This document shows positions 21,089 to 35,928 of a stretch of 64,000 nucleotides of DNA, in pieces. A program made the translations under genes and the position numbers. Location of the stretch: contig NZ_QDKQ01000065.1 in assembly GCF_003116815.1 (NCBI RefSeq), positions 1 through 64,000 on the forward strand, read 5' to 3'. The first letter of the stretch is position 1. Every line of letters starts with the position of its first letter. Under the pieces are notes generated by a model, which saw only the letters and a program-made list of their open reading frames with translations, was not told where the DNA came from and did no database searches. This DNA comes from Caulobacter endophyticus. GTDB lineage: Bacteria; Pseudomonadota; Alphaproteobacteria; Caulobacterales; Caulobacteraceae.

Positions 21089-22606
21089 TCAGCCGGCCAG
21101 GCGGGTCTCGGCGCGGCCGAGAAACGCGGCGTGGCTCGGCAGGGCGGCGGCCGTGCGGGCGGTGATGCGCGACAGGTCGTCCAGCCAGCCGTCGATCTGG
21201 TCGTCGGCGACCACGCCGGTCATCGGGTGCGTCGCGGCGGGGGTCACGCCCTGGCCCAGCAGCACCTGCACCCAGCTGCTTTCCTTGAAGAGATCGTCGT
21301 CGCGGCTGAACACGCGGCCCGAGCTGGCGAACAGCGCCATGCGCTCGGCCAGGGTGTCGGGGATCTCCATGGTCCGCCGGCTGGCCCAGAACGGCGTGTC
21401 CTCGCGCTCGGTGGCCTTGTAGTGCAGCACCAGGAAGTCGCGGATGCGGGCGTACTCGTCGGCGGTCTGGCGGTTGAACTCGGCCGCCAGAAGCGGGTCG
21501 AAGCCTTTGTCGGGGAATAGCGCCAGCAGGCGGGCCAGGCCCGATTGCACCAGGTGAATGCTGGTCGATTCCAGCGGCTCCATGAAGCCGGCGGCCAGGC
21601 CCAGGGCCACGACGTTGCGGTTCCAGCTCCGCTTGCGGCGTCCGGTGACGAAGGTCAGCAGGCGCGGCTCGGCCAGGGCCTCGCCTTCCAGGTTATCCAT
21701 CAGCACGCGGGCGGCGGCGTCCTTGTCGGTCCAGGCGCTGGAGAAGACATGGCCGTTGCCGGTGCGGTGCCGCAGCGGGATACGCCACTGCCAGCCGGCG
21801 TCGCGGGCCCAGGCGCGGGTGTAGGGAACCGGCGGAGCCTCGTCGCGGCTGGGAACGGCCCAGGCGCTGTCCATCGGCAGCCACTCGCGCCAGTCCTCGT
21901 AGCCGGTCTCGAGGGCTTCCTGGATCAGCAGGCCCCGGAAGCCCGAGCAGTCGATGAAGAGGTCGCCCTCGACACGGCGCTCGCCTTCCAGCGTCACGGC
22001 GCGCAGGAAGCCGGTCTCGCCGTCCTGGTCGACGCCGACGATGCGCCCCTCGACGCGCGCGACGCCCCGGGCCTCGGCGCGGGTCCGCAGGTGGCGGGCG
22101 TAGAGGGCGGCGTCGAAGTGGAAAGCCCAGGTCAGGGGCTCGGCCCCGCCCGCTTGGGCCGGGCTGGTGGGAACGCGGCCGAACCGGCCCGCGCGCGCCG
22201 CCAGGGCGTTGGCCGACCAGGCCCAGAAGTCGTCCCCGGCCGTTCCGCGCCTGCGGGCGTCCAGCCAGTAGTGGTGGAAGGGCGTCACGCCCAGCGGCCG
22301 GCCCACGGGTCCGAAGGCGTGCATGTAGCGGTGGCCGGGGCGCAGCCAGTCGACGAATTCGATGCCCAGCTTGATCGTGCCTTCCGTGGCCCGCAGGAAG
22401 GCGTCCTCGTCGAGGCCGATGAAGGCGTTGAAGTTGCGCAGCTGGGGGATCGAGGCCTCGCCGACCCCGACCGTGCCGATCGCCTCGGACTCCACCAGGC
22501 TGATGGCGACGCCAGGTCCAAGGGCGCGGGCCAGCATGGCCGCGCTCATCCATCCGGCCGTACCGCCGCCGACGATGACGATCCTGCCGATACGGTTGTC
22601 CGTCAT
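21089..22606 (-). CDS. Flavin-dependent tryptophan halogenase-family protein
   Basis: This 505-residue cytoplasmic flavoprotein shows all three halogenase signatures: FAD motif VIVGGGTAGW at 10-19, WQWRIP at 272-277 and PLESTSIHLV with Glu346. The catalytic Lys is at 79 in EGTIKLGIEF. Lys79 and Glu346 fall at the same numbers as in PrnA. Such halogenases are common next to TonB-dependent receptors in Caulobacteraceae and Xanthomonas; BrvH of Brevundimonas, found in that setting, halogenates indole, but natural substrates are unknown. A flavin reductase partner is not encoded nearby. I chose the ATG at 22606. It lies downstream of the receptor on the same strand but after a terminator. Confidence 0.93.
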   Translation of the reverse strand: MTDNRIGRIVIVGGGTAGWMSAAMLARALGPGVAISLVESEAIGTVGVGEASIPQLRNFNAFIGLDEDAFLRATEGTIKLGIEFVDWLRPGHRYMHAFGPVGRPLGVTPFHHYWLDARRRGTAGDDFWAWSANALAARAGRFGRVPTSPAQAGGAEPLTWAFHFDAALYARHLRTRAEARGVARVEGRIVGVDQDGETGFLRAVTLEGERRVEGDLFIDCSGFRGLLIQEALETGYEDWREWLPMDSAWAVPSRDEAPPVPYTRAWARDAGWQWRIPLRHRTGNGHVFSSAWTDKDAAARVLMDNLEGEALAEPRLLTFVTGRRKRSWNRNVVALGLAAGFMEPLESTSIHLVQSGLARLLALFPDKGFDPLLAAEFNRQTADEYARIRDFLVLHYKATEREDTPFWASRRTMEIPDTLAERMALFASSGRVFSRDDDLFKESSWVQVLLGQGVTPAATHPMTGVVADDQIDGWLDDLSRITARTAAALPSHAAFLGRAETRLAG

Positions 22607-22632
22607 GGCCCTGCGTCCTTCTCTCCCCAAAG

Positions 22633-22667
22633 AAAGCAAAAAGCCCCGCCGGTGGACCGGCGGGGCT
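22633..22667 (-). terminator. Terminator between the receptor and the halogenase
   Basis: On the minus strand AGCCCCGCCGG and CCGGCGGGGCT form a perfect 11-bp stem around a 4-base loop, followed by TTTTTGCTTTC. It would end most receptor transcripts before the halogenase. Confidence 0.85.
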
Positions 22668-22680
22668 CTTCGAAGCGGCC

Positions 22681-25485
22681 TTAGAACTTGTAGGCCAGGC
22701 CGAACATGTAGGTGGTGCCGTACTTCTGGTAGTCGATGGTCCGGCGGGGATCGCCGTTCTCGTAGGTCTTGAACGGCTCGTCGGTGATGTTGTTGGCTTG
22801 CAGCATCAGCGACAGGCCCTCGAAGCGGCCTTCGCGGAATTCGTAGCCGATCTGGGCGTCGAGCACCGACTCGGCGTCCACCGTGCGGTAGATGCGCGAG
22901 GCCGACAGGCCCGAGACCTCGCCCAGGAACTTGCCGCGATAACGGTTGCTGATCCGGGCGTTGAAGCCGTTGTTCTCGTAGTAGAACGTGGTGTTGACCA
23001 CCTTCTTCGACAGGCCGGGCATGTCGATCGGGTCCTGGCCGTCCTCAAGCTTCACTTCGCTGTCGGTCAGCGAGGCGCTGAACTGCAGGCCGAAGTGGCG
23101 CAGGGGCTCCCAGAGGATGTCGCCCTGGATCGAGGTGGAGAACTCGACGCCGCGGATGTAGCCGCCCTTGCCGTTGTCGGGGCCCGTGACCAGGCCGACC
23201 GTGGTGCCCAGTTGCTGCTGCTGGGCGGGCGAGAGCAGGTAGGTGAAGGCCGCGAAGTCCTTGTAGCTCGACGAGTTCGAGTTCACGTAGTTGGACAGCT
23301 TCTTGTAGTAGGCGGCCACCGAGACGTAGGCCGAGCGGCCGAAGTACTTCTCCAGAGACACGTCGACGCCGTCGGCGATGTAGGGACGAAGCTTCGGGTT
23401 GCCGCCGTTGGCGCTGAAGAACGACTGGTTGGGGTTGGTCGAGGTCAGGTAGGCCGGGTTGGTGGTGAACGACTGGCTGGCGCGCAGTTCGTCCATCCGG
23501 GCGCGGGCCAGGGTCCGGGCCGCGCCGACCCGCAGCAGGGTCTCGTTGCTGAGGTCGAAGGTCAGGTTGATGCTGGGCAGCACGTAGGTGAACTTGTCGC
23601 CGTCGTCGGTCGACATCGGTTGGGAAACGTTGTTCGGATCGACGGCCACGCCGGTCGAGAACTGGTCGGTGTGCACCACCTGCAGGCCGGCGTTGCCCTT
23701 GACCGGGATCGAGCCGAGCGTGCTGTCGATGCCGAACTTCACATAGCCCAGGTGCACCTCTTCACGGACCGACCAGTTGCGGGTCTGAACCGCGGGGTTC
23801 TGGTCGGCGATCAGGGTGTAGACGCCGTTGTTCAGCAGGTAGGTCGGATCGTAGGCCAGCATGCCCTCGATGCCGATCAGGCCCAGGCTGACGTCGCCGA
23901 TCAGGGCCGCGGTCGGGATGGCGCGGCTGGTCGGAGCGCCCTGGGCGATGCGGCCGCCGAAGGTCAGGAAGCTCTCGTGCACTTCCTTGGACTTCTCGCG
24001 CAGGCTGCCGTTGTAGGCGAACTCGACGCTGCTGATCGGACCCCACGACAGGTCGTGCTTGGCCGACAGCTTGATGGCCTCCAGCTCGTCCTTGATCTGC
24101 GGCGTATTGTAGAAGCCGGCCTGGGTCAGGGCGCCGCCTGCCGCGCCCGCGCCCCACCCTTGCGGGTCGGTCAGGACGATCTGGGCGGCGTTGGTGTAGT
24201 CCAGCGTCGACTTGAACAGGGTGCCGCCGCCCGGCGTGGTGGTGAAGCCCATGGTGTCGGTGGCGCCGACGCCCTGCGGGCCGGTGCCCGAATAGGACTC
24301 GAAGATCACGTCCTTGCGCTTGGCGTGCGAGTAGGAGAGGTCGGCCGTCGCCGTCCAGCCGTTGTCGAATTCGTACGACGTGTTCCAGCCCACCGAGCCC
24401 AGCTTGGCGTGGCGGGTGTTGAGGTCGTTGCGCATCACGCCCTTCACGTTGCTGTACGTGCCGCTCGTGATGATGCCGTCGGTGACCGTGTAGCCGGGCT
24501 GCAGCACGGCGCCGCCCCAGAACAGCGGGATCTCGATGCCGCGCAGGATCTGCTTCTCCTTGAAGTCGGAGTAGTAGAGGTCGAGCGCGGTGTGGAACTT
24601 GTCGGTCGGCTTATATTCGAGCACGCCGATGACGCCGGTGCGCTTGAGGTTGTTGGACTGGTTGTACGGCTTGGCGCCGCCGATGATCAGCGCGCCGTCG
24701 GCTGCGGTGTAGGCCGGATTGCCGGCATAGGGCGCGGCGTCGGCGTCGAAGGTGGCGTAGCCCCAGGCGTTGAAGCGGCGGCTCTGGGTTGGCGACTGGA
24801 TGTGCGAGACCGACAAGGCCACGCCCACGGTGTCGTCGGCGAACTGGTCGACGAAGGTGGCGCTGATCCGGCGGCCGGTGTCCTTGGCGTCGGGGTTCAG
24901 CTTCTTCTCGCCGTTCATCTCGTAGCGGGCGTTGGCCGAGATGACCGTCTTGCCGTAGTCGAGCGGGCGGATGGTGCGCAGGTCGACCGTGGCGGCCAGG
25001 CCCTGGCCCACCAGGCTGGCGTCGGGGGTCTTGTAGACCACCACGCCGCTGAGGATTTCAGACGGATACTGGTCGAACTCAACGCCGCGGTTGTCGCTGG
25101 TCGAGACCTGCTCGCGGCCGTTCAGCAGCACGGTGTTGAAATCGGGACCCAGGCCCCGGACCGAGATCGACTGCGCGCGGCCGTCGAGGCGCTGGGCGGT
25201 CAGGCCGGGCAGGCGGGCCAGGGATTCGGCGATCGAGGTGTCGGGCAGCTTGCCGATGTCTTCGGCCGAGACCGTCTCGACGATCGAGCTGGAGGCTTTC
25301 TTCAGTGCGATCGAGTTCTCGATCGAGGCCCGGATGCCGGTGACGGTGATTTCCTCGACGGCGTTGTCTTCGGTCGTCTGGCCGGCGGCCTGGGCCTGGG
25401 CGGCTCCGGCGGCGATCAGCAGCGCCAGGCCAGTGGCGGCCCCGCTCATCAGCGCCGCGCGGCGCGGCTTGAATCGGATGTCCAT
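22681..25485 (-). CDS. malA: TonB-dependent outer-membrane receptor, MalA-like
   Basis: The 934-residue receptor has a signal peptide (ending AGAAQAQA) and then a plug domain with EEITVTGIRASIENSIALKK, SAEDIGKLPD and SVRGLGPDFNTVLLNGR. The 22-strand barrel follows and ends in the aromatic terminal strand MFGLAYKF. In C. crescentus the receptor MalA takes up maltodextrins; the flanking amylase, glucosidases, LacI gene and symporter make that the likely substrate here. The assignment to MalA rests on context. It is divergent from the amylase with about 300 bases between, containing TTGC/GCAA boxes. Confidence 0.9.
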   Translation of the reverse strand: MDIRFKPRRAALMSGAATGLALLIAAGAAQAQAAGQTTEDNAVEEITVTGIRASIENSIALKKASSSIVETVSAEDIGKLPDTSIAESLARLPGLTAQRLDGRAQSISVRGLGPDFNTVLLNGREQVSTSDNRGVEFDQYPSEILSGVVVYKTPDASLVGQGLAATVDLRTIRPLDYGKTVISANARYEMNGEKKLNPDAKDTGRRISATFVDQFADDTVGVALSVSHIQSPTQSRRFNAWGYATFDADAAPYAGNPAYTAADGALIIGGAKPYNQSNNLKRTGVIGVLEYKPTDKFHTALDLYYSDFKEKQILRGIEIPLFWGGAVLQPGYTVTDGIITSGTYSNVKGVMRNDLNTRHAKLGSVGWNTSYEFDNGWTATADLSYSHAKRKDVIFESYSGTGPQGVGATDTMGFTTTPGGGTLFKSTLDYTNAAQIVLTDPQGWGAGAAGGALTQAGFYNTPQIKDELEAIKLSAKHDLSWGPISSVEFAYNGSLREKSKEVHESFLTFGGRIAQGAPTSRAIPTAALIGDVSLGLIGIEGMLAYDPTYLLNNGVYTLIADQNPAVQTRNWSVREEVHLGYVKFGIDSTLGSIPVKGNAGLQVVHTDQFSTGVAVDPNNVSQPMSTDDGDKFTYVLPSINLTFDLSNETLLRVGAARTLARARMDELRASQSFTTNPAYLTSTNPNQSFFSANGGNPKLRPYIADGVDVSLEKYFGRSAYVSVAAYYKKLSNYVNSNSSSYKDFAAFTYLLSPAQQQQLGTTVGLVTGPDNGKGGYIRGVEFSTSIQGDILWEPLRHFGLQFSASLTDSEVKLEDGQDPIDMPGLSKKVVNTTFYYENNGFNARISNRYRGKFLGEVSGLSASRIYRTVDAESVLDAQIGYEFREGRFEGLSLMLQANNITDEPFKTYENGDPRRTIDYQKYGTTYMFGLAYKF

Positions 25486-25530
25486 GTGTTCCCTCCCGCA
25501 AGTTGGTCCGCGCGGTTCTCCCGCGCCGTG

Positions 25531-25567
25531 TTGCGCAAATTACTGCAAATGACCGGCGGTATTTGCA
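25531..25567. promoter_or_regulatory. malA: Candidate LacI-family operator cluster near malA
   Basis: TTGCGCAA has the central CpG expected for LacI-family sites and lies 46 bases upstream of the malA start. TGCAAAT at 25544 and ATTTGCA at 25561 form a second inverted pair. Similar boxes occur upstream of the symporter and beside the LacI gene. Confidence 0.5.
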
Positions 25568-25704
25568 ACTGAAAAATGGATGGATTGTCATGTTACGCGA
25601 CGGCGAGGCGTGCGAAGTCCACGTTTAAAAGGGTTTTTGCGGCTTTCTCGCCACAGTGCGGCCCGGTTCCCGGCGCTGCTCGCGAGGCGAATGGATTGAC
25701 AGGC

Positions 25705-25733
25705 TGCAAACGGCTTTGCAAATCTATGCAAAA
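25705..25733. promoter_or_regulatory. Candidate operator cluster upstream of the amylase gene
   Basis: TGCAAA occurs at 25705, 25717 and 25727; the middle copy is inside the palindrome TTTGCAAA. The last copy ends 57 bases before the amylase ATG, suitable for repression of the amylase promoter. Confidence 0.5.
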
Positions 25734-25789
25734 TTGACCTGGGCGACGCATCGTTCAGGATCGCGACGCTAGGGATGGAGGGGCAGGGG

Positions 25790-27619
25790 ATGGACACCCG
25801 CAATCGGTGGGGGCGGCTGGCGGCCGCGCTCGGCTGCGCCGGCATGACCCTGGCGGCCTCTCCGGCCCTTTCGGCGCCCTCGTCGCAGGCCTTTCGCGAC
25901 CGGCTTCCGCAGGACGAGGTGATCTATTTCGTGCTGGCCGACCGCTTCGCCAACGGCGATCCTTCCAACGATCGCGGCGGCCACTCGGGCGATCGCCTGG
26001 CCACCGGCTATGACCCTGCCGACAAGGGGTTCTTCCACGGCGGCGACTTCAAGGGCCTGACGGGCAAGCTCGACTATGTGCAGGGTCTGGGCGCGACGGC
26101 GATCTGGCTGGCGCCGATCTTCGTCAACAAGCCGGTGCAGGGACCCCGGGGCCAGGAAAGCGCCGCCTACCACGGCTACTGGATCACCGACTTCACCGAC
26201 GTCGACCCGCATCTGGGAACCAAGGCCGACTTCAAGGCCCTGGTCGACGCCGCCCATGCGCGGGGGATGAAGGTCTATCTCGACATCGTCATCAACCACA
26301 CCGCCGACGTCATCAAGCTGAGGGAGTGCGAGGGCCGGCGCTGCGAATACCGGAGCAAGGCCGACTATCCGGTCTCGCGCCGAGGCGGCGTGTCGGGCGC
26401 GGCGATCAACGCCGGCTTCGCGGGCGATGACGACGGCTCGGAAGGCAATTTCGCAAAGCTGAACCGGCCGGACTTCGCCTACACGCCCTATGTCCCGGCC
26501 GCCGAGGCCGGGATCAAGAAGCCCGACTGGCTGAACGATCCCATCTACTATCATAACCGCGGCGAGAGCGATTTCGTCGGCGAGAGCTCGCTCTATGGCG
26601 ACTTCGCCGGGCTCGACGACCTCTATACCGAGCATCCGCGCGTGGTGGCCGGCTTCATCGACATCTATGGTAAGTGGATCGACGATTTCGGGATCGACGG
26701 CTTTCGCGTCGACACTGCCCGGCATGTGAACCCGCAGTTCTGGCGGGCCTTCGTGCCGGCCATGCGGGAGCGGGCTGCAAAGCGCGGCATCCCCAACTTC
26801 CACATCTTCGCCGAGATCGCCGATCCCGATCCGGTGGCCCTGGCCCGCTCGACCGTGGTCGACGGCTTTCCGGCCGCGCTGGACTTCGCCTTCCAGCAGG
26901 CGGCGACCGAGACCGTCGCGGGCAAGGCCGGGACCGATCGCTTCGCCCGGCTCTATGCCGCCGACGCGCTCTATCGCGGCGGCGAGGCGGCGGGGCCGCA
27001 GATCCCGACCTTCCTGGGCAACCACGACATGGGGCGCTTCGGCCGCCGGCTGCTGGCCGGCCATCCGGAAGCGTCCGATGCAGAGCTGGTCCAGCGCAAC
27101 GTGCTGGCCCACGCCATGCTGATGTTCCTGCGCGGCGCCCCGACCCTCTACTACGGCGACGAGCAGGGCTTCACCGGCGACGGCGACGACAAGGACGCCC
27201 GCGAGGACATGTTCGCCAGCAAGGTCGCCGTCTACAACGACAACCGGCTGATCGGCGGCAAGGGCGGCTCGGCCGACCGCTATGACGCCGGCGCGCCGCT
27301 CTATCGCGCCATTTCCGGCATGGCCAAGGTCCGCGCCGCCGAGCCCGCTCTGCGGTCCGGCCGCCAGGTGATCCGCGCCGCCGGCGACAAGCCCGGCCTG
27401 CTGGCCGTCTCCCGCATCCTCCAGGGCCGCGAGGTCCTGGTCCTGTTCAACACCGGCGCGGCGCCGGTGGACGCCCAGGTCGAGGTCGAGACGACCTCGG
27501 CGGCCTGGCGCTCGGCCGTCGGCGCCTGCGCGCCGGCCGCCGCCGCGCCCGGCAGCTATCGCGTGACCATCGCGCCGCTCGACTACAAGATCTGCGTCTC
27601 GGAGGGCGCGCACCAGTGA
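25790..27619 (+). CDS. GH13 alpha-amylase, exported
   Basis: This 609-residue enzyme has a signal peptide ending near ALSAPSS, then a GH13 barrel. Catalytic residues fit Asp308 in GFRVDTARH, Glu342 in IFAEIAD and Asp413 in LGNHDM; DIVINH is the region-I motif. It should cut alpha-1,4 links of starch or dextrins in the periplasm or outside the cell. A C-terminal beta domain covers the last 100 residues. The ATG at 25790 follows GGAGGGG; an upstream ATG at 25775 is possible. The stop overlaps the alpha-glucosidase GTG start. Confidence 0.92.
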   Translation: MDTRNRWGRLAAALGCAGMTLAASPALSAPSSQAFRDRLPQDEVIYFVLADRFANGDPSNDRGGHSGDRLATGYDPADKGFFHGGDFKGLTGKLDYVQGLGATAIWLAPIFVNKPVQGPRGQESAAYHGYWITDFTDVDPHLGTKADFKALVDAAHARGMKVYLDIVINHTADVIKLRECEGRRCEYRSKADYPVSRRGGVSGAAINAGFAGDDDGSEGNFAKLNRPDFAYTPYVPAAEAGIKKPDWLNDPIYYHNRGESDFVGESSLYGDFAGLDDLYTEHPRVVAGFIDIYGKWIDDFGIDGFRVDTARHVNPQFWRAFVPAMRERAAKRGIPNFHIFAEIADPDPVALARSTVVDGFPAALDFAFQQAATETVAGKAGTDRFARLYAADALYRGGEAAGPQIPTFLGNHDMGRFGRRLLAGHPEASDAELVQRNVLAHAMLMFLRGAPTLYYGDEQGFTGDGDDKDAREDMFASKVAVYNDNRLIGGKGGSADRYDAGAPLYRAISGMAKVRAAEPALRSGRQVIRAAGDKPGLLAVSRILQGREVLVLFNTGAAPVDAQVEVETTSAAWRSAVGACAPAAAAPGSYRVTIAPLDYKICVSEGAHQ

Positions 27620-29250
27620 CCATCGACAGTCTGGCCAACACCGCCGCGTATCCCGTTTCCGCAAGCAGCGCCGAATGGTGGCGCGGGGCGGTGATCTATC
27701 AGGTCTATCCGCGCAGCTACGCCGACTCCAACGACGACGGGGTGGGCGATCTGCGAGGCGTCGCCGCGCGTCTCGAGCACATCGCCTCGCTGGGCGTGCA
27801 GGCGATCTGGCTGTCGCCGTTCTTCGCCTCGCCGATGAAGGACTTCGGCTACGACGTTTCGGACTATCGCGACGTCGACCCGATCTTCGGAACCCTGGCC
27901 GACTTCGACGTCCTGATCGAAAAGGCCCACCGCCTGGGCGTGAAGATCATCATCGATCTGGTGTTCTCGCACACCAGCGACGAGCACGCCTGGTTCGCCC
28001 AGAGCCGCGAAAGCCGAGATAATCCGTATACGGATTGGTACGTCTGGGCCGACGCCAAGCCCGACGGCTCGCCGCCGTCGAACTGGCAGTCGGTGTTCGG
28101 TGGTCCGGCCTGGACCTGGGACGCACGGCGCGGCCAGTACTACATGCACAACTTCCTGGCCTCGCAGCCGCAGCTGAACCTGCACAATCCGAAAGTGCAG
28201 GAGGCCCTGCTCGACATCACCCGCTTCTGGCTGGAGCGCGGGGTGGACGGCTTCCGCTTCGACGCCATCAACTTCTCGATGCACGACCCGGCCCTGCGGG
28301 ACAATCCGCCCCTGCCGCCGGGCGGCAAGCGCACGCGGCCGTTCGACTTTCAGGACAAGGTCTTCAACCAGGGCCATCCGGACATTCCGCAGTTCCTCTC
28401 CCGCCTGCGAGCCCTGACCGACCAGTACGAAGGCCGGTTCTCGGTGGCCGAGATCGGCGGCGACCGGGCCGACGAGGAGATGAAGCTGTTCACGGCTGGC
28501 GAGGACCGGCTGAACAGCGCCTACAGCTTTCTCTACCTCTATGCCGACGAGCTGAAGGACGAACTGGTGCGCTTCGGCGCGACCTCGTGGCCGGGCCATG
28601 AGGGCGAGGGCTGGCCGTCCTGGACCTTCTCCAACCACGACGCCCCGCGCGCGGTGTCGCGCTGGGCGCGCGGCCGCGACCGCAAGGCCTTCGCCGAGAT
28701 GGGCCTGCTGCTGCTGATGACCCTGCGCGGCAACGTCTTCGTCTACCAGGGCGAGGAGTTGGGCCTGCCGCAGGCCCACGTGCCGTTCGAGCGCCTGGTC
28801 GACCCCGAGGCCATCGCCAACTGGCCCCAGACCCTGGGCCGCGACGGGGCCCGCACGCCGATGCCGTGGACGGCCGGGGCTGTGAACGCCGGCTTCTCCA
28901 CCGTCGAGCCGTGGCTGCCGGTCGATCCGGAGCACCTGCCCCTGGCGGTCGACGCCCAGGAGGCCGATCCCGCCTCGACCCTGCACGTCGCCCGCCGGCT
29001 GATCGGCCTGCGCGCGAAGTGGCCGGCGCTGCGCACCGGCGGCATGCACCTCGTGGACACCAACACCCCGCTGCTGGTGTTCGAGCGCGGCGAGGGCGAG
29101 GCCGCGATGCTGTGCGTGTTCAACATCGGCTTCGAGGCCGTGGCCTGGGACCTGCCGGAAGGCTGGGCGGTGGTCGACAGCGTCAACCTCGGCGCGCCGG
29201 GCTCGGTGCCGCCGCTGGGCGGCCTGCTGGCGAAGCGGGGCGCTGCGTGA
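27616..29250 (+). CDS. GH13 alpha-glucosidase, cytoplasmic
   Basis: The 544-residue enzyme has no signal peptide and begins WWRGAVIYQVYPRSYADSND after a short leader, the typical start of GH13 subfamily 23 or similar oligo-glucosidases. Catalytic residues are Asp216 in GFRFDAINF, Glu279 in VAEIGGD and Asp342 in FSNHDAPR. It would hydrolyse maltose and short maltodextrins to glucose in the cytoplasm. The GTG at 27616 overlaps the amylase stop TGA, a sign of coupling. The gene is followed by a palindromic repeat at 29254-29367 and the convergent LacI gene. Confidence 0.92.
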   Translation: MTIDSLANTAAYPVSASSAEWWRGAVIYQVYPRSYADSNDDGVGDLRGVAARLEHIASLGVQAIWLSPFFASPMKDFGYDVSDYRDVDPIFGTLADFDVLIEKAHRLGVKIIIDLVFSHTSDEHAWFAQSRESRDNPYTDWYVWADAKPDGSPPSNWQSVFGGPAWTWDARRGQYYMHNFLASQPQLNLHNPKVQEALLDITRFWLERGVDGFRFDAINFSMHDPALRDNPPLPPGGKRTRPFDFQDKVFNQGHPDIPQFLSRLRALTDQYEGRFSVAEIGGDRADEEMKLFTAGEDRLNSAYSFLYLYADELKDELVRFGATSWPGHEGEGWPSWTFSNHDAPRAVSRWARGRDRKAFAEMGLLLLMTLRGNVFVYQGEELGLPQAHVPFERLVDPEAIANWPQTLGRDGARTPMPWTAGAVNAGFSTVEPWLPVDPEHLPLAVDAQEADPASTLHVARRLIGLRAKWPALRTGGMHLVDTNTPLLVFERGEGEAAMLCVFNIGFEAVAWDLPEGWAVVDSVNLGAPGSVPPLGGLLAKRGAA

Positions 29251-29372: not shown

Positions 29373-30386
29373 CTAACCCCCGCAGCTTTCCCGGACGATC
29401 AGGTCCGTCGGCACCCGCTCGCTCCGGCTGGCCCCCTGGCCGCTGGCGTCCAGCAGCTTCGACACCATCAGCCGACCGGCCTTGGCCGTGTCCTGCGAAA
29501 TGGTCGACAGGGCCGGGCTGGAGTAGCGGGCGAAGGGGACGTCGTCGTAGCCGATCACCGACACGTCGCCGGGGACCGACAGGCCCGCATGCTGCAGGGC
29601 CCTGATGGCGCCCAAGGCGATCAGGTCGGAGGCGGCCACGACGCCGTCGAACTTCACGCCGCGCTGAATGAGGGAGTCGATGCTGGCCTCGGCCGACTCG
29701 ACCTCGAAGTGGGCCGGCACGATCAGGTCGGGATCGACGCCCAGGCCGAACTGCTCGACCGCGTCGAGATAGCCGCGGTGGCGCTGCATGGCCTCGGGCG
29801 CCTCGGTGTCGCCCAGGAAGACGATGCGCTTGCGGCCCAGGCGCGCCAGGTGCAGCGTCGCGCGCCTGGCGCCCAGGGGGTTGTCCGAACCCACAGAGCA
29901 ATAGGCCTGGTCGGGCAACTGCGCGCCCCAGACCACGAAGCGGGCTTCGGTCTCGGCCAGGCGGTTGAAGGCGGTGTGCAGCCAGGATTGGCCGAGGAAA
30001 ATCACCCCGTCGGCACGGCTGGTGGTCATGGCCGCCGACAGGTCCTCGAAGCTGCCCGGGGCCACGTGGCTGACCAGGATATCGCAGCCACGCTCGCGCG
30101 CGGCCTCGCCGACGCCGGCGAACAGTTCGAGGAAGAACGGGTCCGACAGCCGGCCCTCGCGGTGCTGGGGACGCGGCACGACGATGGCGATCGTGCCCTC
30201 GGCGCCGATCGGCCCGGCGGGCATGTAGCGGCGGAACGGATAGTCCATCTCCCGCGCCAGCTTCCAGATCAGCTGCTTGGTGCGCTGGTTGACGGCGGGG
30301 CTGTCGTTCAGCGCCCGCGAGGCGGTGGAGATCGAGACGCCGGCCATCCTGGCCAGGTCTTCCAGACGCGTCGCCCCCTTGCTCAC
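29373..30386 (-). CDS. malR: LacI-family transcriptional regulator, MalR-like
   Basis: The 337-residue regulator has the LacI helix-turn-helix at its N-terminus (LEDLARMAGVSISTASRALN) and hinge, then a periplasmic-binding-like effector domain with SRADGVIFLG and DVSVIGYDDVPFARYSSPAL. The GTG at 30386 gives the standard short N-terminus; the open frame continues upstream for 45 codons without family character. It is divergent from the GH97 gene and probably represses the mal genes in the absence of a maltodextrin-derived inducer. TTGC-N-GCAA lies in the shared upstream region. Confidence 0.9.
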   Translation of the reverse strand: MSKGATRLEDLARMAGVSISTASRALNDSPAVNQRTKQLIWKLAREMDYPFRRYMPAGPIGAEGTIAIVVPRPQHREGRLSDPFFLELFAGVGEAARERGCDILVSHVAPGSFEDLSAAMTTSRADGVIFLGQSWLHTAFNRLAETEARFVVWGAQLPDQAYCSVGSDNPLGARRATLHLARLGRKRIVFLGDTEAPEAMQRHRGYLDAVEQFGLGVDPDLIVPAHFEVESAEASIDSLIQRGVKFDGVVAASDLIALGAIRALQHAGLSVPGDVSVIGYDDVPFARYSSPALSTISQDTAKAGRLMVSKLLDASGQGASRSERVPTDLIVRESCGG

Positions 30387-30523: not shown

Positions 30524-32557
30524 ATGATCCTGCGCCTTCTCGCCGTGGCCGTCCTGGCCCTGGCGGCTTCGCCCGCGCTCGCGGCCGTCACGGCGACCGC
30601 GGCCTCGCCCGACAAGGTGCTGAGCGTGACGGTGACCACCGACAACGACGGCCAGCCAATCTATTCGGTCAGCCGCCTGGGGCGGCCGGTGGTGGCCCCG
30701 TCGAAGCTGGGTTTCATCCTGGTCGACGCCCCCAAGCTGCAGCGCAATTTCGAGGTTGCGGACCAGCAGACCCGCAGCGTCGACGAGACCTGGGACCTGC
30801 CCTGGGGCGAGCGCAAGAGCGTGCGCAACCGCTTCAACGAGTTGCGCGTGAGCCTGGTCGAGAAGACCCCGCTGCACCGCCGCCTGGACGTGGTGTTCCG
30901 GCTCTATGACGACGGCCTGGGCTTCCGCTACGAGTTCCCAGAGCAGCCGAACCTGCAGGCCGCCCGCATCGGCGAGGAACTGACCGAGTTTTCCCTGGTC
31001 GACGAGGCCACGGCCTGGTGGATCCCGGCCTATGAGTGGAACCGCGAGGAATATCTCTACAACACCACGCCGGTCGAAGAGGTCAGCGTCGCCCAGACGC
31101 CGATGACCCTGCGCACCAAGGATGGTTTGCACGTCTCGATCCACGAGGCCTCGCTCGTGGATTACGCCGGCATGAACCTGGCCCGCGCTCAGGATCGCCG
31201 CTTCCGCGCCAGCCTGACGCCGGGGATCGGCGAGGCCAAGGTCGAGCGCGCCCTGCCGTTCCCGACGCCCTGGCGCACCCTGCAGATCGCCGACAGCGCC
31301 GGCGGCCTGGTGACCTCCAGCCTGATCCTGAATCTCAACGAGCCCAACAGGCTGGGCGACGTCTCGTGGATCAAGCCGATGAAATATGTCGGCGTCTGGT
31401 GGGAGATGCATCTGGACCACAAGACCTGGGGCTCGGGTCCCAAGCACGGCGCGACCAATAACAACGTCATGCGCCACATCGACTTCGCCGCGAAACACGG
31501 CCTGGGCGGGGTGCTGGTCGAGGGCTGGAACAAGGGCTGGGACGGCGCCTGGTTCGCCGACGGCTCGGAGTTCAGCTTCACGCAGTCCTATCCCGACTTC
31601 GATCTTGCGAAGCTGACCGACTACGCCCGCAAGAAGGGCGTCGTCCTGATCGGCCACCACGAGACGGCCGGCAACACCGTCGTCTACGAGCGCCAGATGG
31701 AGGCCGCCTTCGATCTCTACAAGTCGGTGGGCGTGCCGGCCGTGAAGACCGGATATGTGGCCGACGCCGGCGGCGCCCAGGTGCTGGGTGCGGACGGCAA
31801 GACCCATTTCGCCTGGCATGAGAGCCAGCCGATGGCGCGGCATCACCTGCGGGTGCTCGAGGCGGCCGCCAGGCGCCAGATCGCCATCAACGCCCACGAG
31901 CCGATCAAGGACACGGGCCTGCGCCGCACCTATCCCAACTGGATCAGCCGCGAGGGCGCGCGGGGCATGGAGTTCAGCGCCTGGGGCCAGCCGGGCAATC
32001 CGCCCGAGCACGAGGCCAACCTCGTCTTCACCCGCCTGCTGGCCGGACCGATGGACTATACGCCGGGCATCTTCGGCATGAAGACCAAGGCCCCCGACGG
32101 CGTGGCCACCACCTGGGCCAAGCAACTGGCGCTGTACGTGGTGATCTACAGCCCGATCCAGATGGCCGCCGACCTGCTCGAGAACTACGAGGCCAATCCC
32201 AAGCCGTTCAAGTTCATCGAGGACGTGCCTGTCGACTGGGCCGACACCAAGGTCGTCAACGGCGAGATCGGCGACTTCGTCACCATCGCCCGCAAGGACC
32301 GCAAGAGCGACGACTGGTACCTGGGCGCGATCAGCGACGAGCAGGGCCGGGTGCTTTCGGCGCCTCTGTCGTTCCTGGATCCGGGCCGCAAGTACCGCGC
32401 CGAGATCTATCGCGACGGTGAGGCGGCCGACTGGAAGACCGCCCCGCAGGACATCGTCATCGAGGCCCGCGAGGTCACGGCGGCCGATGTGCTGGAGCTG
32501 AAACTGGCTCCCGGCGGCGGCCAGGCGATCCGGTTCGTGGCGCTCGGGAAGCGCTAG
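30524..32557 (+). CDS. GH97 glycoside hydrolase (alpha-glucosidase type)
   Basis: The 677-residue exported enzyme has a signal peptide (MILRLLAVAVLALAASPALA). The N-terminal beta-supersandwich (DKVLSVTVTTDNDG to about residue 280) is followed by the GH97 barrel with VGVWWEMHLDHKTW, VLVEGWNKGWD, GHHETAGNT and INAHEPIKDTG, and a C-terminal domain. Family members are calcium-dependent and include inverting alpha-glucosidases (SusB type) and retaining alpha-galactosidases; context favours alpha-glucosidase. GGGGAG lies upstream of the chosen ATG. A terminator at 32566-32602 follows. Confidence 0.92.
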   Translation: MILRLLAVAVLALAASPALAAVTATAASPDKVLSVTVTTDNDGQPIYSVSRLGRPVVAPSKLGFILVDAPKLQRNFEVADQQTRSVDETWDLPWGERKSVRNRFNELRVSLVEKTPLHRRLDVVFRLYDDGLGFRYEFPEQPNLQAARIGEELTEFSLVDEATAWWIPAYEWNREEYLYNTTPVEEVSVAQTPMTLRTKDGLHVSIHEASLVDYAGMNLARAQDRRFRASLTPGIGEAKVERALPFPTPWRTLQIADSAGGLVTSSLILNLNEPNRLGDVSWIKPMKYVGVWWEMHLDHKTWGSGPKHGATNNNVMRHIDFAAKHGLGGVLVEGWNKGWDGAWFADGSEFSFTQSYPDFDLAKLTDYARKKGVVLIGHHETAGNTVVYERQMEAAFDLYKSVGVPAVKTGYVADAGGAQVLGADGKTHFAWHESQPMARHHLRVLEAAARRQIAINAHEPIKDTGLRRTYPNWISREGARGMEFSAWGQPGNPPEHEANLVFTRLLAGPMDYTPGIFGMKTKAPDGVATTWAKQLALYVVIYSPIQMAADLLENYEANPKPFKFIEDVPVDWADTKVVNGEIGDFVTIARKDRKSDDWYLGAISDEQGRVLSAPLSFLDPGRKYRAEIYRDGEAADWKTAPQDIVIEAREVTAADVLELKLAPGGGQAIRFVALGKR

Positions 32558-32609: not shown

Positions 32610-33503
32610 TCACCCGAACACCAGCGACCGATGGGCGCCCACGCCCGCCAGCACGCCGTCGGCCGAGGCCAGGGTGGCGTTGTGGTTGGCCCGCGCGGCG
32701 TCGCCGGCGGCGAAGACGCCCGGCACGCTGGTGGCCTTCCAGTCGTCGACGCTGATCATCGGTCCCAGCGGGCCGTCCTCCAGCGCGCAGCCCAGGCGCT
32801 CGGCCAGGGGGCTGGCCATGCGCACGGTGGGCGAGGCGAAGATCGCCTCGATGGCCACGATGCGGCCATCGGCGAGGCGCGCGCCCGACAGGTCCGGCTC
32901 GTCGCCCAGCAGCTCGACCACCGGAACCTCCTCGATCGCCACGCCGCGCGCGGCCAGCTGGCCTCGTATGTCGGCGTCGATCGGCAGGCCCTGGCTGAAC
33001 AGGGTGGTGGGGCCCCAGTCGGGGATCATCAGGGCCTTGTGCAGATCCATCGCGCCGCTGGCCAGCACGCCCAACCTGCGGTCGCGGGCCTCGTAGCCGT
33101 GGCAGTAGGGGCAGTGCAGCACGGTCGCGCCCCAGCGGGGTTTCAGGCCCGGTATCTCGGGCAGCTGGTCTGCGACGCCGGTGGCCAGCACCAGGCGCTT
33201 GCTCCGCAGGGTGCGGCCATCGCCCAGCGCCACGGCGAAACCGTCGCTGTCCGTCCCGGCGTCGCGCGCCTCGCCCTCGACGAACGCGACGGTGGGGTAG
33301 CCGGCCAGCTGGCGGCGGGCCTCGCGCAGGATGTCGAACGGCGCCTTGCCGTCCTGGCCGAGGAAGCCGTGCGAGGCGTCGGCGAAGCGGTTGCGCGGCA
33401 GGCCGGCGTCGACCACCAGCACGTCGCGGCGGGCGCGGGCCAGCTGCATGGCGGCGGACAAGCCAGCGAAGCTGCCGCCGACGACGATGACGTCATGACT
33501 CAT
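32610..33503 (-). CDS. Thioredoxin-reductase-like FAD/NAD(P) oxidoreductase
   Basis: This 297-residue flavoprotein has an N-terminal FAD motif VIVVGGSFAGLSAA and a redox-type CPYC in LHCPYCHGYE near residue 132. The second nucleotide site has the form RLGVLASGAMDLHK, without a clear GxGxxA core. The final AAGDAARANHNATLASADG contacts FAD. Enzymes of this branch resemble thioredoxin reductase but their acceptor is unknown. Its start overlaps the stop of the Rrf2 gene by 11 bases, so the two form an operon, probably one redox-responsive unit inserted in the mal island. Confidence 0.88.
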   Translation of the reverse strand: MSHDVIVVGGSFAGLSAAMQLARARRDVLVVDAGLPRNRFADASHGFLGQDGKAPFDILREARRQLAGYPTVAFVEGEARDAGTDSDGFAVALGDGRTLRSKRLVLATGVADQLPEIPGLKPRWGATVLHCPYCHGYEARDRRLGVLASGAMDLHKALMIPDWGPTTLFSQGLPIDADIRGQLAARGVAIEEVPVVELLGDEPDLSGARLADGRIVAIEAIFASPTVRMASPLAERLGCALEDGPLGPMISVDDWKATSVPGVFAAGDAARANHNATLASADGVLAGVGAHRSLVFG

Positions 33504-33957
33504 GATGGGGATCCTTGCAGCCGGCCGCCTGCAGCACGACGCGGCGCGGGCCGATCTGGGCGGCCAGGTCCGCCAGGGTGATCCTGGAGAGGCACTCGTC
33601 CAGCAGGCGGCGCGCTTCGGCCACGGCGTCGTCCAGGGCGGCGTTGACCGCCCGCTCGACCATGCAGCCGGGGCTTTCCTCGGCCTTGCCCAGCGCCAGC
33701 AGCGGTTCGTCCAGCGCCGCCTGGATGTCGGCCAGGGTGACGGCGTCCAGCGGCCTCAGCAGGGTCCAGCCGCCGCCGTGGCCCTTGGTCGAGCCCACGA
33801 TGCCGGCATCGCGCAGGCCCGCGAAGGTGCGGCGGATGACCACCGGATTGGTCGCGGCCCACGAGGCCAGGACGTCCGAAGTCAGGGCCTTGTCGGCCTG
33901 TTCGGCCATGTGCAGCAGCACGTGCAGGGCGACGGAGAGGCGGCTGTTCCGTTTCAT
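33493..33957 (-). CDS. Rrf2-family transcriptional regulator
   Basis: The 154-residue winged-helix regulator begins MKRNSRLSVALHVLLHMAEQ and contains TSDVLASWAATNPVVIRRTF and STKGHGGGWTLLRPL, the typical Rrf2 pattern. It lacks the three-Cys cluster of IscR/NsrR and has only two Cys (ESPGCMV and AAGCKD), which might sense redox state as a pair. I chose the ATG at 33957; upstream in-frame codons cover its own operator. It overlaps the reductase gene, and a palindrome at 33958-33974 touches the start codon. Confidence 0.9.
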   Translation of the reverse strand: MKRNSRLSVALHVLLHMAEQADKALTSDVLASWAATNPVVIRRTFAGLRDAGIVGSTKGHGGGWTLLRPLDAVTLADIQAALDEPLLALGKAEESPGCMVERAVNAALDDAVAEARRLLDECLSRITLADLAAQIGPRRVVLQAAGCKDPHHES

Positions 33958-34387: not shown

Positions 34388-35920
34388 ATGATCAAAGCCA
34401 GGCTGAGCCTCTTCCAGATCTGGAACATGTGCTTCGGGTTCTTCGGGATCCAGATCGGCTTTGGCCTGCAGAACGCCAACACCAGCCGCATCTTCCAGAC
34501 CCTCGGCGTCGAGATCGACCACCTGGCCATTCTTTGGATCGCCGCGCCGGCCACGGGCCTCCTGGTGCAGCCGATCATCGGCCACCTGTCCGACAAGACC
34601 TGGGGCCGGCTGGGGCGTCGGCGACCCTACTTCTTCTGGGGCGCGATCCTGACCACGGCCGCCCTGATCCTGATGCCCAATTCGCCGACCCTGTGGATGG
34701 CGGCCTCGGCGCTGTGGATCATGGACGCCTCTATCAACATCACCATGGAGCCGTTCCGGGCCTTCGTCGGCGACAACCTGCCCGACGAGCAGCGCGCGAC
34801 CGGTTACGCCATGCAGAGCTTCTTCATCGGGATCGGGGCGGTGCTTGCCTCGTGCCTGCCGTGGATCCTGACCAACTGGCTGGACGTGGCCAACACCGCC
34901 CCAGCCGGCCAGATCCCGCCGTCGGTGCGCATCGCCTTCTATGTCGGGGGCGCGGCGCTGCTGGCCTCGGTGCTGTGGACGGTCTTCTCCACCCGCGAAT
35001 ATTCGCCCGAACAGATGGCCGCCTTCGAAGCCGCCGAGGCTGGGGCCAAGGGCGAGGCCGTGGCGGTCGAAGCCGGTTCCGGGCGCGCTGTCGCCGCTTA
35101 TCTGACCGGCGGCGCGATCTGGACGATCGCCGGCCTCGCCGTCGCGGCGGGCGTCTATGCCGCCAAGCTGGAGAAGGAGCTCTACGTCCTGGCCGCCCTG
35201 GTCGCCGGCTTCGGCCTAGCGCAGCTGGTCGCCGGCCAGCTGAAGCGGGCGGGGCGCGCGGCCAACGGCTTTTCCGAAGTGGTCGAGGACCTCTTCGCCA
35301 TGCCCGCCACCATGAAGCAGCTGGCGGTGGTGCAGTTTTTCTCGTGGTTCGGCCTCTTCGCCATGTGGATCTACACCACCCCGGCCGTGGCCGCCTTCCA
35401 CTACGGCGCGGCCAATGCGGCCTCGGCCGCCTACAACGCCGGGGCCGACTGGGTGGGCGTGCTGTTCGGCGTCTATAATGGCGTGGCGGCCCTGGCGGCG
35501 CTGCTGATCCCGGTGATCGCGCGGGCCTTCAGCCGCCGTGTGGCCCACGCCCTGTGCCTTGTTCTGGGCGGGCTTGGCCTGCTGTCGTTCCTCGTGATCC
35601 GCGATCCGAAGCTGCTGGTGATCGGCATGGTCGGCGTCGGCTTCGCCTGGAGCTCGATCCTGTCGTCGCCCTACTCGATCCTGTCGGGCTCGGTGCCGGG
35701 GCGGAAGATGGGCGTCTACATGGGCATCTTCAATTTCTTCATCGTCATCCCGCAGCTCTTGGCCGCCACGGTGCTGGGCCTGCTGCTCAAGACCTTCTTC
35801 GGCGGCCAGGCGATCTATGCGCTCGTGCTGGGCGCGGCCTCGTTCCTGATCGCCGCGGTTTCCGTCTTCGCCGTCAACGACCCGGGCGAGCCCAAGCGGC
35901 TGGCCAAGTCTGCTTCGTGA
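34388..35920 (+). CDS. malY: Sugar:cation symporter (GPH/SLC45-like), MalY-like
   Basis: The 510-residue inner-membrane transporter has about twelve hydrophobic segments. The motif DKTWGRLGRRRPYFFWG after the second segment and ALWIMDASINITMEPFRAFV are typical of GPH/SLC45-type sugar transporters. In C. crescentus, MalY is the proposed cytoplasmic-membrane transporter for maltose, and this gene has the same context. Residues 225-250 form an Ala/Glu-rich cytoplasmic loop. The ATG at 34388 follows GGGGAAG. It is followed after eight bases by the glucoamylase, so they are probably co-transcribed. Confidence 0.88.
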   Translation: MIKARLSLFQIWNMCFGFFGIQIGFGLQNANTSRIFQTLGVEIDHLAILWIAAPATGLLVQPIIGHLSDKTWGRLGRRRPYFFWGAILTTAALILMPNSPTLWMAASALWIMDASINITMEPFRAFVGDNLPDEQRATGYAMQSFFIGIGAVLASCLPWILTNWLDVANTAPAGQIPPSVRIAFYVGGAALLASVLWTVFSTREYSPEQMAAFEAAEAGAKGEAVAVEAGSGRAVAAYLTGGAIWTIAGLAVAAGVYAAKLEKELYVLAALVAGFGLAQLVAGQLKRAGRAANGFSEVVEDLFAMPATMKQLAVVQFFSWFGLFAMWIYTTPAVAAFHYGAANAASAAYNAGADWVGVLFGVYNGVAALAALLIPVIARAFSRRVAHALCLVLGGLGLLSFLVIRDPKLLVIGMVGVGFAWSSILSSPYSILSGSVPGRKMGVYMGIFNFFIVIPQLLAATVLGLLLKTFFGGQAIYALVLGAASFLIAAVSVFAVNDPGEPKRLAKSAS

Positions 35921-35928
35921 GGTCCCTC

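Follow-up and report, generated by a model that had tools for sequence, protein, structure and literature searches.

A Flavin-Dependent Halogenase Linked to TonB-Dependent Sugar Receptors in Caulobacter endophyticus and Other Proteobacteria

Results and Discussion

An Intact Halogenase Lies behind a MalA-Like Receptor

A stretch of 64,000 nucleotides from Caulobacter endophyticus (positions 1 to 64,000 of contig NZ_QDKQ01000065.1, hereafter the window) carries a gene for a flavin-dependent halogenase directly downstream of the gene for a MalA-like TonB-dependent receptor, in a maltodextrin locus. The enzyme is predicted to be active, and the pairing of halogenase with receptor recurs throughout this genome and in related loci from three proteobacterial classes. 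The explanation that we favor, with confidence that stops a little short of even, is that the halogenase is an optional accessory of the locus that is expressed at a low level by transcriptional read-through, adds halogen to an aromatic target that is bulky or exposed, and tunes uptake or envelope function. The two genes are as follows.

21089–22606, minus strand: BrvH/Xcc4156-type flavin-dependent halogenase (PF04820 match, catalytic marks, best PDB matches)
22681–25485, minus strand: MalA-like TonB-dependent receptor, 934 amino acids (TIGR01782; Plug and barrel domains)

The halogenase has 505 amino acids counted from the ATG (N terminus MTDNRIGR) and matches the Pfam profile Trp_halogenase (PF04820) over its full length, with 630 bits and profile positions 1–457 of 458. 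GGGTAG starts at residue 13 and WQWRIP at residue 272; the catalytic lysine is residue 79, and Glu346 is located by GFMEP at 340 with LES next to it. All of the marks of membership (GxGxxG, the catalytic Lys, WxWxIP, and Glu next to Ser) are present. The first-pass annotation had named Lys79, Glu346, WQWRIP, and GGGTAG, and all four were found at those positions; its expectation of an active enzyme is supported, as a prediction, by the intact marks. The ratio of nonsynonymous to synonymous substitution rates (dN/dS) against five orthologues is 0.17–0.31, which indicates purifying selection. The coding sequence begins right at the nucleotide-binding motif and no signal peptide is visible by eye, so the protein should be cytoplasmic.

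The closest solved structures are Xcc4156 (6y1w, 514 bits), a Pseudoalteromonas enzyme (9luq, 509), and BrvH (6frl, 473). Those that follow score about 290 bits or less and include the tryptophan halogenases PrnA, RebH, Thal, and PyrH, so that by PDB match score the window halogenase is nearer to BrvH/Xcc4156 than to the tryptophan halogenases. The matches to Xcc4156 and BrvH extend over nearly the full length, and the catalytic marks are the same. PrnA, RebH, Thal, and PyrH share the Pfam family and the chemistry marks at lower similarity, but the group B form of the Trp4 motif (YYHG type), the only form looked for, is absent from the window halogenase. At the group C-like positions, which read ATIPSL and HSFGH in Xcc4156, it carries ASIPQL and HAFGP. 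On these sequence features it is an intact enzyme of the BrvH/Xcc4156 group, dependent on reduced flavin adenine dinucleotide (FADH2) and predicted to be active, and it adds to that kind a member located in a maltodextrin locus.

Both BrvH and Xcc4156 brominate indole but do not act on tryptophan. Their site is open and accessible to solvent, and peptides have been put forward as substrates of either enzyme (PMC7336383, PMC5945002). The BrvH and Xcc halogenases are characterized as enzymes whose natural substrates are not established (PMC7336383). A receptor setting for BrvH, as the first-pass annotation has it, was not confirmed: "TonB" is absent from the text of PMC5945002 to which we refer, and the one neighbor of brvH named there is a second halogenase. 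Similarly, the corresponding text of PMC7336383 describes no receptor setting for Xcc4156.

The receptor scores 592.6 bits with TIGR01782 (TonB-Xanth-Caul), for which the cut-off is 310. It lies in a locus holding GH13, LacI, major facilitator superfamily (MFS), and GH15 genes, the setting expected of a MalA maltodextrin receptor, together with a GH97 gene. The earlier description of a MalA-like receptor in a maltodextrin island thus stands, and by locus content the receptor is predicted to take up maltodextrins.

The Pairing Recurs across the Genome and across Proteobacteria

A family search of the same genome gave 12 matches, 10 of them full length. These 10 occupy six places, and a TIGR01782-type receptor adjoins every one (five on the same strand, one divergent). 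The genome has 33 TIGR01782-type receptor genes above the cut-off, so adjacency at six of six places is far from what chance would give.

A further 80 loci were taken as the best matches of the window halogenase in the species collection, a sample in which maltose loci are over-represented; 79 could be scored (L032 was left out). The receptor lies directly beside the halogenase, or beside its halogenase neighbors, in 57 of the 79 and is separated by one gene in 13 more (70/79). Receptors of another type in L049, L064, and L083, which form one cluster, were added by hand, with a Pfam scan for L049 only. Among 20 further halogenase places, some of which were chosen for a cluster-like look or for a gap between listed halogenases, 17 are receptor-adjacent, one more is so by Pfam (L223), one is without a receptor, and one, of low GC, is uncallable. 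Gene calling was unreliable on low-GC L207 and L216; L207 was excluded and L216 was scored as a miss among the 20.

Hosts of the related loci include Caulobacter, Brevundimonas, Maricaulis, Parvularcula, Sphingomonas, and Erythrobacter, and also Massilia, Pseudoxanthomonas, Rheinheimera, and Pseudocolwellia. The pairing occurs in Alpha-, Beta-, and Gammaproteobacteria, and it does so at several kinds of sugar locus. Across the 80 loci, LacI genes are present in 45, amylase-type GH13 genes in 39, glucosidase-type GH13 genes in 35, and a GH97 homologue in 26, and Pfam scans of selected neighbors add GH3, GH10, GH30, GH31, GH35-like, GH43, GH67, and pullulanase genes. Relatives of the halogenase group by locus type, with 17 changes on the tree against a shuffled mean of 52. 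The first-pass annotation had regarded receptor–halogenase pairs as widespread, and these counts bear it out; the neighborhood is not random.

Two loci deserve separate mention. L077 is a maltose-type locus (GH13, GH97, LacI, MFS) with a halogenase, and no receptor was recognized in its stretch. In L206 (G006, contig C104, 53148–55830), a MalA-like receptor occupies two open frames before the halogenase frame, and a frameshift or an assembly error is possible.

The Halogenase Is Optional at MalA Loci

Several observations weigh against the explanation that we favor. In nine of the 79 related loci the halogenase lacks a receptor next to it or one gene away, three of these nine being at a contig edge. 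A MalA-like receptor (E of 1e-170 or better) was found in 24 of 37 genomes of the genus Caulobacter, our own included; a halogenase lies directly beside it in 13 of the 24 loci and is not in place in the other 11 (L188–L198). The 11 genomes concerned hold 6 to 16 family matches elsewhere. The malA cluster of C. crescentus is described with six genes and no halogenase, and MalA there transports maltodextrins (PMC3917699); a control genome of C. vibrioides does have a halogenase-family match somewhere. In one record (entered twice, as L201 and L023), the halogenase is 81% identical to that of the window and the receptor 53%, for which replacement of the receptor next to a retained halogenase is the simplest explanation. 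Finally, none of the results presented here singles out a substrate.

No halogenase remnant was found in the 11 halogenase-free MalA stretches by tblastn (best E 3.0). The receptor of L188 is 78% identical to that of the window and nests among halogenase-bearing receptors, so loss of the halogenase there was probably recent. In these 11 genomes the activity may be supplied in trans from another locus. Since some MalA loci lack the gene in place, the halogenase is optional at the locus, and maltodextrin transport as such can probably proceed without it. Neither these 11 loci nor the degenerate members of multi-halogenase arrays described below figured in the first-pass annotation.

The C. crescentus cluster, cc2282–cc2287, encodes MalS/glucoamylase, MalY, MalI, two proteins of the alpha-amylase family, and MalA (PMC3917699). 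The window locus differs in having a halogenase behind the receptor and a GH97 gene, whereas L193, L194, L195, and L198 have a C. crescentus-like layout of GH15-MFS-LacI-GH13-GH13-receptor.

Halogenase Divergence Follows the Whole Locus

The tight gene pairing, and an open active site proposed to fit peptides (PMC7336383), raise the prospect that the receptor is itself the substrate, with one of its Trp or Tyr residues halogenated before export. A first mirror-tree comparison appeared to favor this reading: over 29 loci, halogenase and receptor distances correlated with r = 0.865 (partial 0.68). The comparison was repeated over 36 loci with best-match control genes, leaving out the duplicate record L201. 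The halogenase–glucosidase correlation was then 0.87 (partial 0.63) and the halogenase–receptor correlation 0.80 (partial 0.31). With GH97 added (16 loci), the halogenase correlates with GH97 at 0.93, with the glucosidase at 0.92, and with the receptor at 0.86. Under these better-matched controls the glucosidase is no weaker a correlate of the halogenase than the receptor is, and receptor-specific coevolution was dropped. Judged by these distances, halogenase divergence follows the whole locus and not the receptor in particular.

Residue comparisons also lend the receptor little support as a target. Tyr545 is present in 45 of 69 linked and 0 of 25 unlinked receptors, and Trp323 in 43 of 69 and 3 of 25, but among MalA receptors both are kept whether or not a halogenase is present, and they were rejected as candidate acceptor residues. 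Fifteen Trp/Tyr columns are conserved in at least 85% of 47 linked MalA receptors; each is likewise conserved in 11 or 12 of the 12 unlinked receptors, a set in which one member (L051) is the second receptor of a halogenase-holding locus. Phe 238 and Phe 489 are commoner in halogenase-linked Caulobacter MalA receptors (13/15 and 14/15, against 0/10 and 2/10 in the clade without), as a target in the receptor would lead one to hope. They stand, however, in just 5 of 12 distant linked receptors, and no Trp, Tyr, or His position in the Caulobacter MalA receptors passed the filter that gave them. L188, despite its loss of the halogenase, keeps both Phe residues and every aromatic residue common to its halogenase-bearing relatives. 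Together with the apparent receptor exchange in L201/L023, these results make the receptor an improbable substrate.

Co-divergence with the whole locus, the patchy presence at MalA loci, and the apparent retention of the halogenase through a receptor exchange would all suit a passive passenger that is carried along with sugar loci and does nothing specific to them. Purifying selection on the gene speaks against this, as does the occurrence of the pairing in three proteobacterial classes and at several kinds of sugar locus, and we consider a passenger very improbable. The steady place of BrvH and Xcc halogenase relatives beside TonB-dependent sugar receptors directs the question of what these enzymes act on toward the envelope, the receptor, or the imported glycan.

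Expression Probably Depends on Read-Through

Two noncoding regions bear on expression of the pair.

22607–22680, minus strand: receptor–halogenase gap of 74 bases, with a terminator-like hairpin and T run, then purine-rich GGGGAGAGAAGGA before the halogenase ATG
25486–25774, no strand assigned: divergent promoter region between receptor and amylase genes, with six TGCAAA/TTTGCA half-sites

The hairpin in the gap has a predicted energy of −31.2 kcal/mol, and the T run is at the end of its 3' arm. Counting gaps of 60–200 bases and sites at −15 kcal/mol or better, a terminator-like hairpin occurs in 34 of 44 receptor–halogenase gaps and in 6 of 220 shuffled ones; a looser count with no limit on the gap gives 42 of 49. 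The controls are instructive. Such hairpins follow 8 of 10 receptors that have some other gene next and are present in 12 of 101 other same-strand pairs. The terminator therefore belongs to the receptor gene, and it was rejected as a hallmark of the receptor–halogenase pair. The first-pass annotation was right that a terminator follows the receptor gene; what does not hold is any special connection with the halogenase.

A gap of 74 bases leaves scant space for a promoter, and the most economical interpretation is that transcripts starting at the sugar-regulated promoter of the receptor run through the terminator; the halogenase is probably expressed in this way. TGCAAA/TTTGCA half-sites number 122 in 25 corresponding regions (that of the window and 24 others, many from close relatives), against a shuffled mean of 2.7. 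Seven more occur elsewhere in the window, including 30428, 34155, and 34333, and none is in the gap before the halogenase. The half-sites are likely operators of a LacI-type regulator.

A Proposed Role

In the role that we propose, the halogenase would be made at a fraction of the receptor level, by terminator read-through from the sugar-regulated malA promoter. Its FADH2 would be supplied by a general cellular flavin reductase. The first-pass annotation had noticed no flavin reductase nearby, and we found no dedicated one: the genome has six matches to PF01613, none of them on contig C65, and it is these matches elsewhere that suggest a general supply. The enzyme would then brominate or chlorinate, in the cytoplasm, an electron-rich aromatic group, probably an indole. 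The target would probably be larger or more exposed than free tryptophan, such as a peptide, a protein, or an aromatic arriving with the glycan. The halogenase would adjust uptake or envelope function, as an accessory that the sugar locus need not have.

There is precedent for a flavin halogenase acting on a peptide in MibH, a lanthipeptide tryptophan halogenase (PMC8269204). Xcc4156 is just 26% identical to MibH (PMC7336383), and no lanthipeptide gene was found among the Pfam-scanned proteins of the window. PMC11337851 speculates on a halogenase in virus–host receptor interactions; the word "halogenase" does not appear in the main text of PMC1790865.

The target might instead be a small scavenged or self-made aromatic, for example free indole or a plant phenol, that is halogenated for detoxification, signaling, or an antimicrobial purpose during growth on sugars from plants or algae. 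BrvH does brominate free indole at C3 (PMC5945002), and the neighboring genes encode glycosidases of plant-type glycans. Given the low activity, the authors of that study nevertheless doubt that indole is the natural substrate (PMC5945002). Moreover, it would be hard to see why a soluble enzyme for a small molecule should exist as about ten paralogues with a separate sugar locus for each, and halogenase relatives cluster by locus type. We regard a small aromatic as possible, if on the unlikely side.

Caulobacterales have been reported to be rich in halogenase annotations and in annotations of rebeccamycin and pyrrolnitrin clusters (PMC10919026). The loci described here suggest that labels of the rebeccamycin or pyrrolnitrin type should not rest on the family name alone.

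Tandem Arrays Contain a Degenerate Second Gene

Lys79, WxWxIP, and Glu346-Ser347 are all kept in 184 of 210 scored halogenases. The 26 exceptions comprise nine with slight changes (Glu-Ala for Glu-Ser, or WxWxIA) and 17 degenerate genes. All but one of the degenerate ("dead") genes are second in a tandem array of at least three halogenases; the remaining one, L079, is second of two, at a contig edge. Examples are given below.

L016 (own genome, contig C39), 9088–10605: degenerate second gene
L074, 8481–9986: degenerate second gene
L062, 7147–8466: degenerate second gene

The second gene is degenerate in 30 of 30 counted arrays of at least three halogenases (22 of 22, then 8 of 8 newly fetched), and 29 of these arrays, L075 being the exception, are beside a recognized receptor. 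Sixteen second genes in the first 22 arrays lack Glu346-Ser347, 11 of them lacking Lys79 as well. The other six were called short and all lack Lys79; two have other residues at 346–347 and four are unaligned there. The eight new arrays come from 19 newly fetched loci, several of which were chosen for a survey gap where a dead gene could lie. Their second genes all have Asp-Gly or Asp-Ala in place of Glu346-Ser347, and seven lack Lys79. In the first 22 arrays, the other scored members keep Lys79 and Glu346-Ser347, except for one fragment in L214. Two interrupted arrays were not counted: L073, where the second gene is broken and lacks Lys79, and L241, where the second is an unrecognized frame of 225 amino acids.

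A tree with 16 dead genes places them in one clade (one change, support 99), a grouping that may be overstated since long branches meet there; in a larger, quick tree the dead genes need two changes, and one live fragment is mislabeled as dead. The closest dead trio has dN/dS of 0.25–0.30, against 0.17–0.31 for live neighbors, and other pairs show faster divergence of the dead genes. A model of one dead gene product has the whole halogenase fold, with Z of 52.8 to 9luq. Several arrays adjoin GH10 or GH43 genes and one adjoins a GH67 gene, which points to glucuronoxylan-type loci. The window singleton falls together with the genes that end the arrays, in a 23-row set with support 95. No description of a degenerate halogenase paralogue or of receptor–halogenase pairing was recognized in the literature by title and start of abstract, a search whose coverage leaves out many subscription papers.

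Some of the 80 loci also encode candidate oxygenases. DUF6445 proteins are present in 16 (e.g., L063, 9228–9980) and Cupin_8 (JmjC-like) proteins in 9 (e.g., L027, 11541–12572). H128, D130, H220, and R238 are invariant in the DUF6445 alignment, and HxD, H, and R form what we take to be the pattern of 2-oxoglutarate Fe(II) oxygenases. A model of DUF6445 resembles many such enzymes, with modest TM-scores, and the protein in these loci looks like a 2-oxoglutarate Fe(II) oxygenase.

All of this could be brought under one reading, which we advance with considerable doubt: receptor-linked halogenases would be parts of a tailoring system that serves sugar uptake through TonB-dependent receptors in proteobacteria. 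Its full form would be a receptor and an array of three or four halogenases, the second a dead paralogue kept by selection that presents the substrate or scaffolds the others; DUF6445 and Cupin_8 oxygenases would be further tailoring enzymes in some loci, and the window singleton a reduced form related to the last array gene. The active-dead-active order suggests that the halogenases work as a complex.

The Surrounding Locus

The remaining genes of the maltodextrin locus are listed below.

25775–27619, plus strand: GH13 amylase-family enzyme, likely signal sequence by eye (PF00128, 198.6 bits)
27616–29250, plus strand: GH13 alpha-glucosidase-like enzyme (PF00128, 396.6 bits)
29373–30386, minus strand: LacI-family regulator (PF00356, PF13377)
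30524–32557, plus strand: GH97 glycosidase (PF10566, PF14508, PF14509)
34388–35920, plus strand: MFS sugar transporter (PF07690, PF13347)
35917–38268, plus strand: GH15 glucoamylase-like enzyme (PF00723, PF09137)

Locus genes were called with our own codon-based script, and the calls in the window were checked by eye. The span 21089–27619 ends with the first GH13 gene, which is opposite in direction to the receptor and halogenase genes; on the side away from the receptor, the neighbor of the halogenase is a secretion-type gene (T2SSF domain), whose end is turned toward it. The 12 genes between 20038 and 38899 were all scanned with Pfam, and the sole other flavoprotein among them is a Pyr_redox_2 protein (32610–33503). 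Its gene overlaps that of an Rrf2-type regulator inside the sugar island (32610–33957, minus strand).

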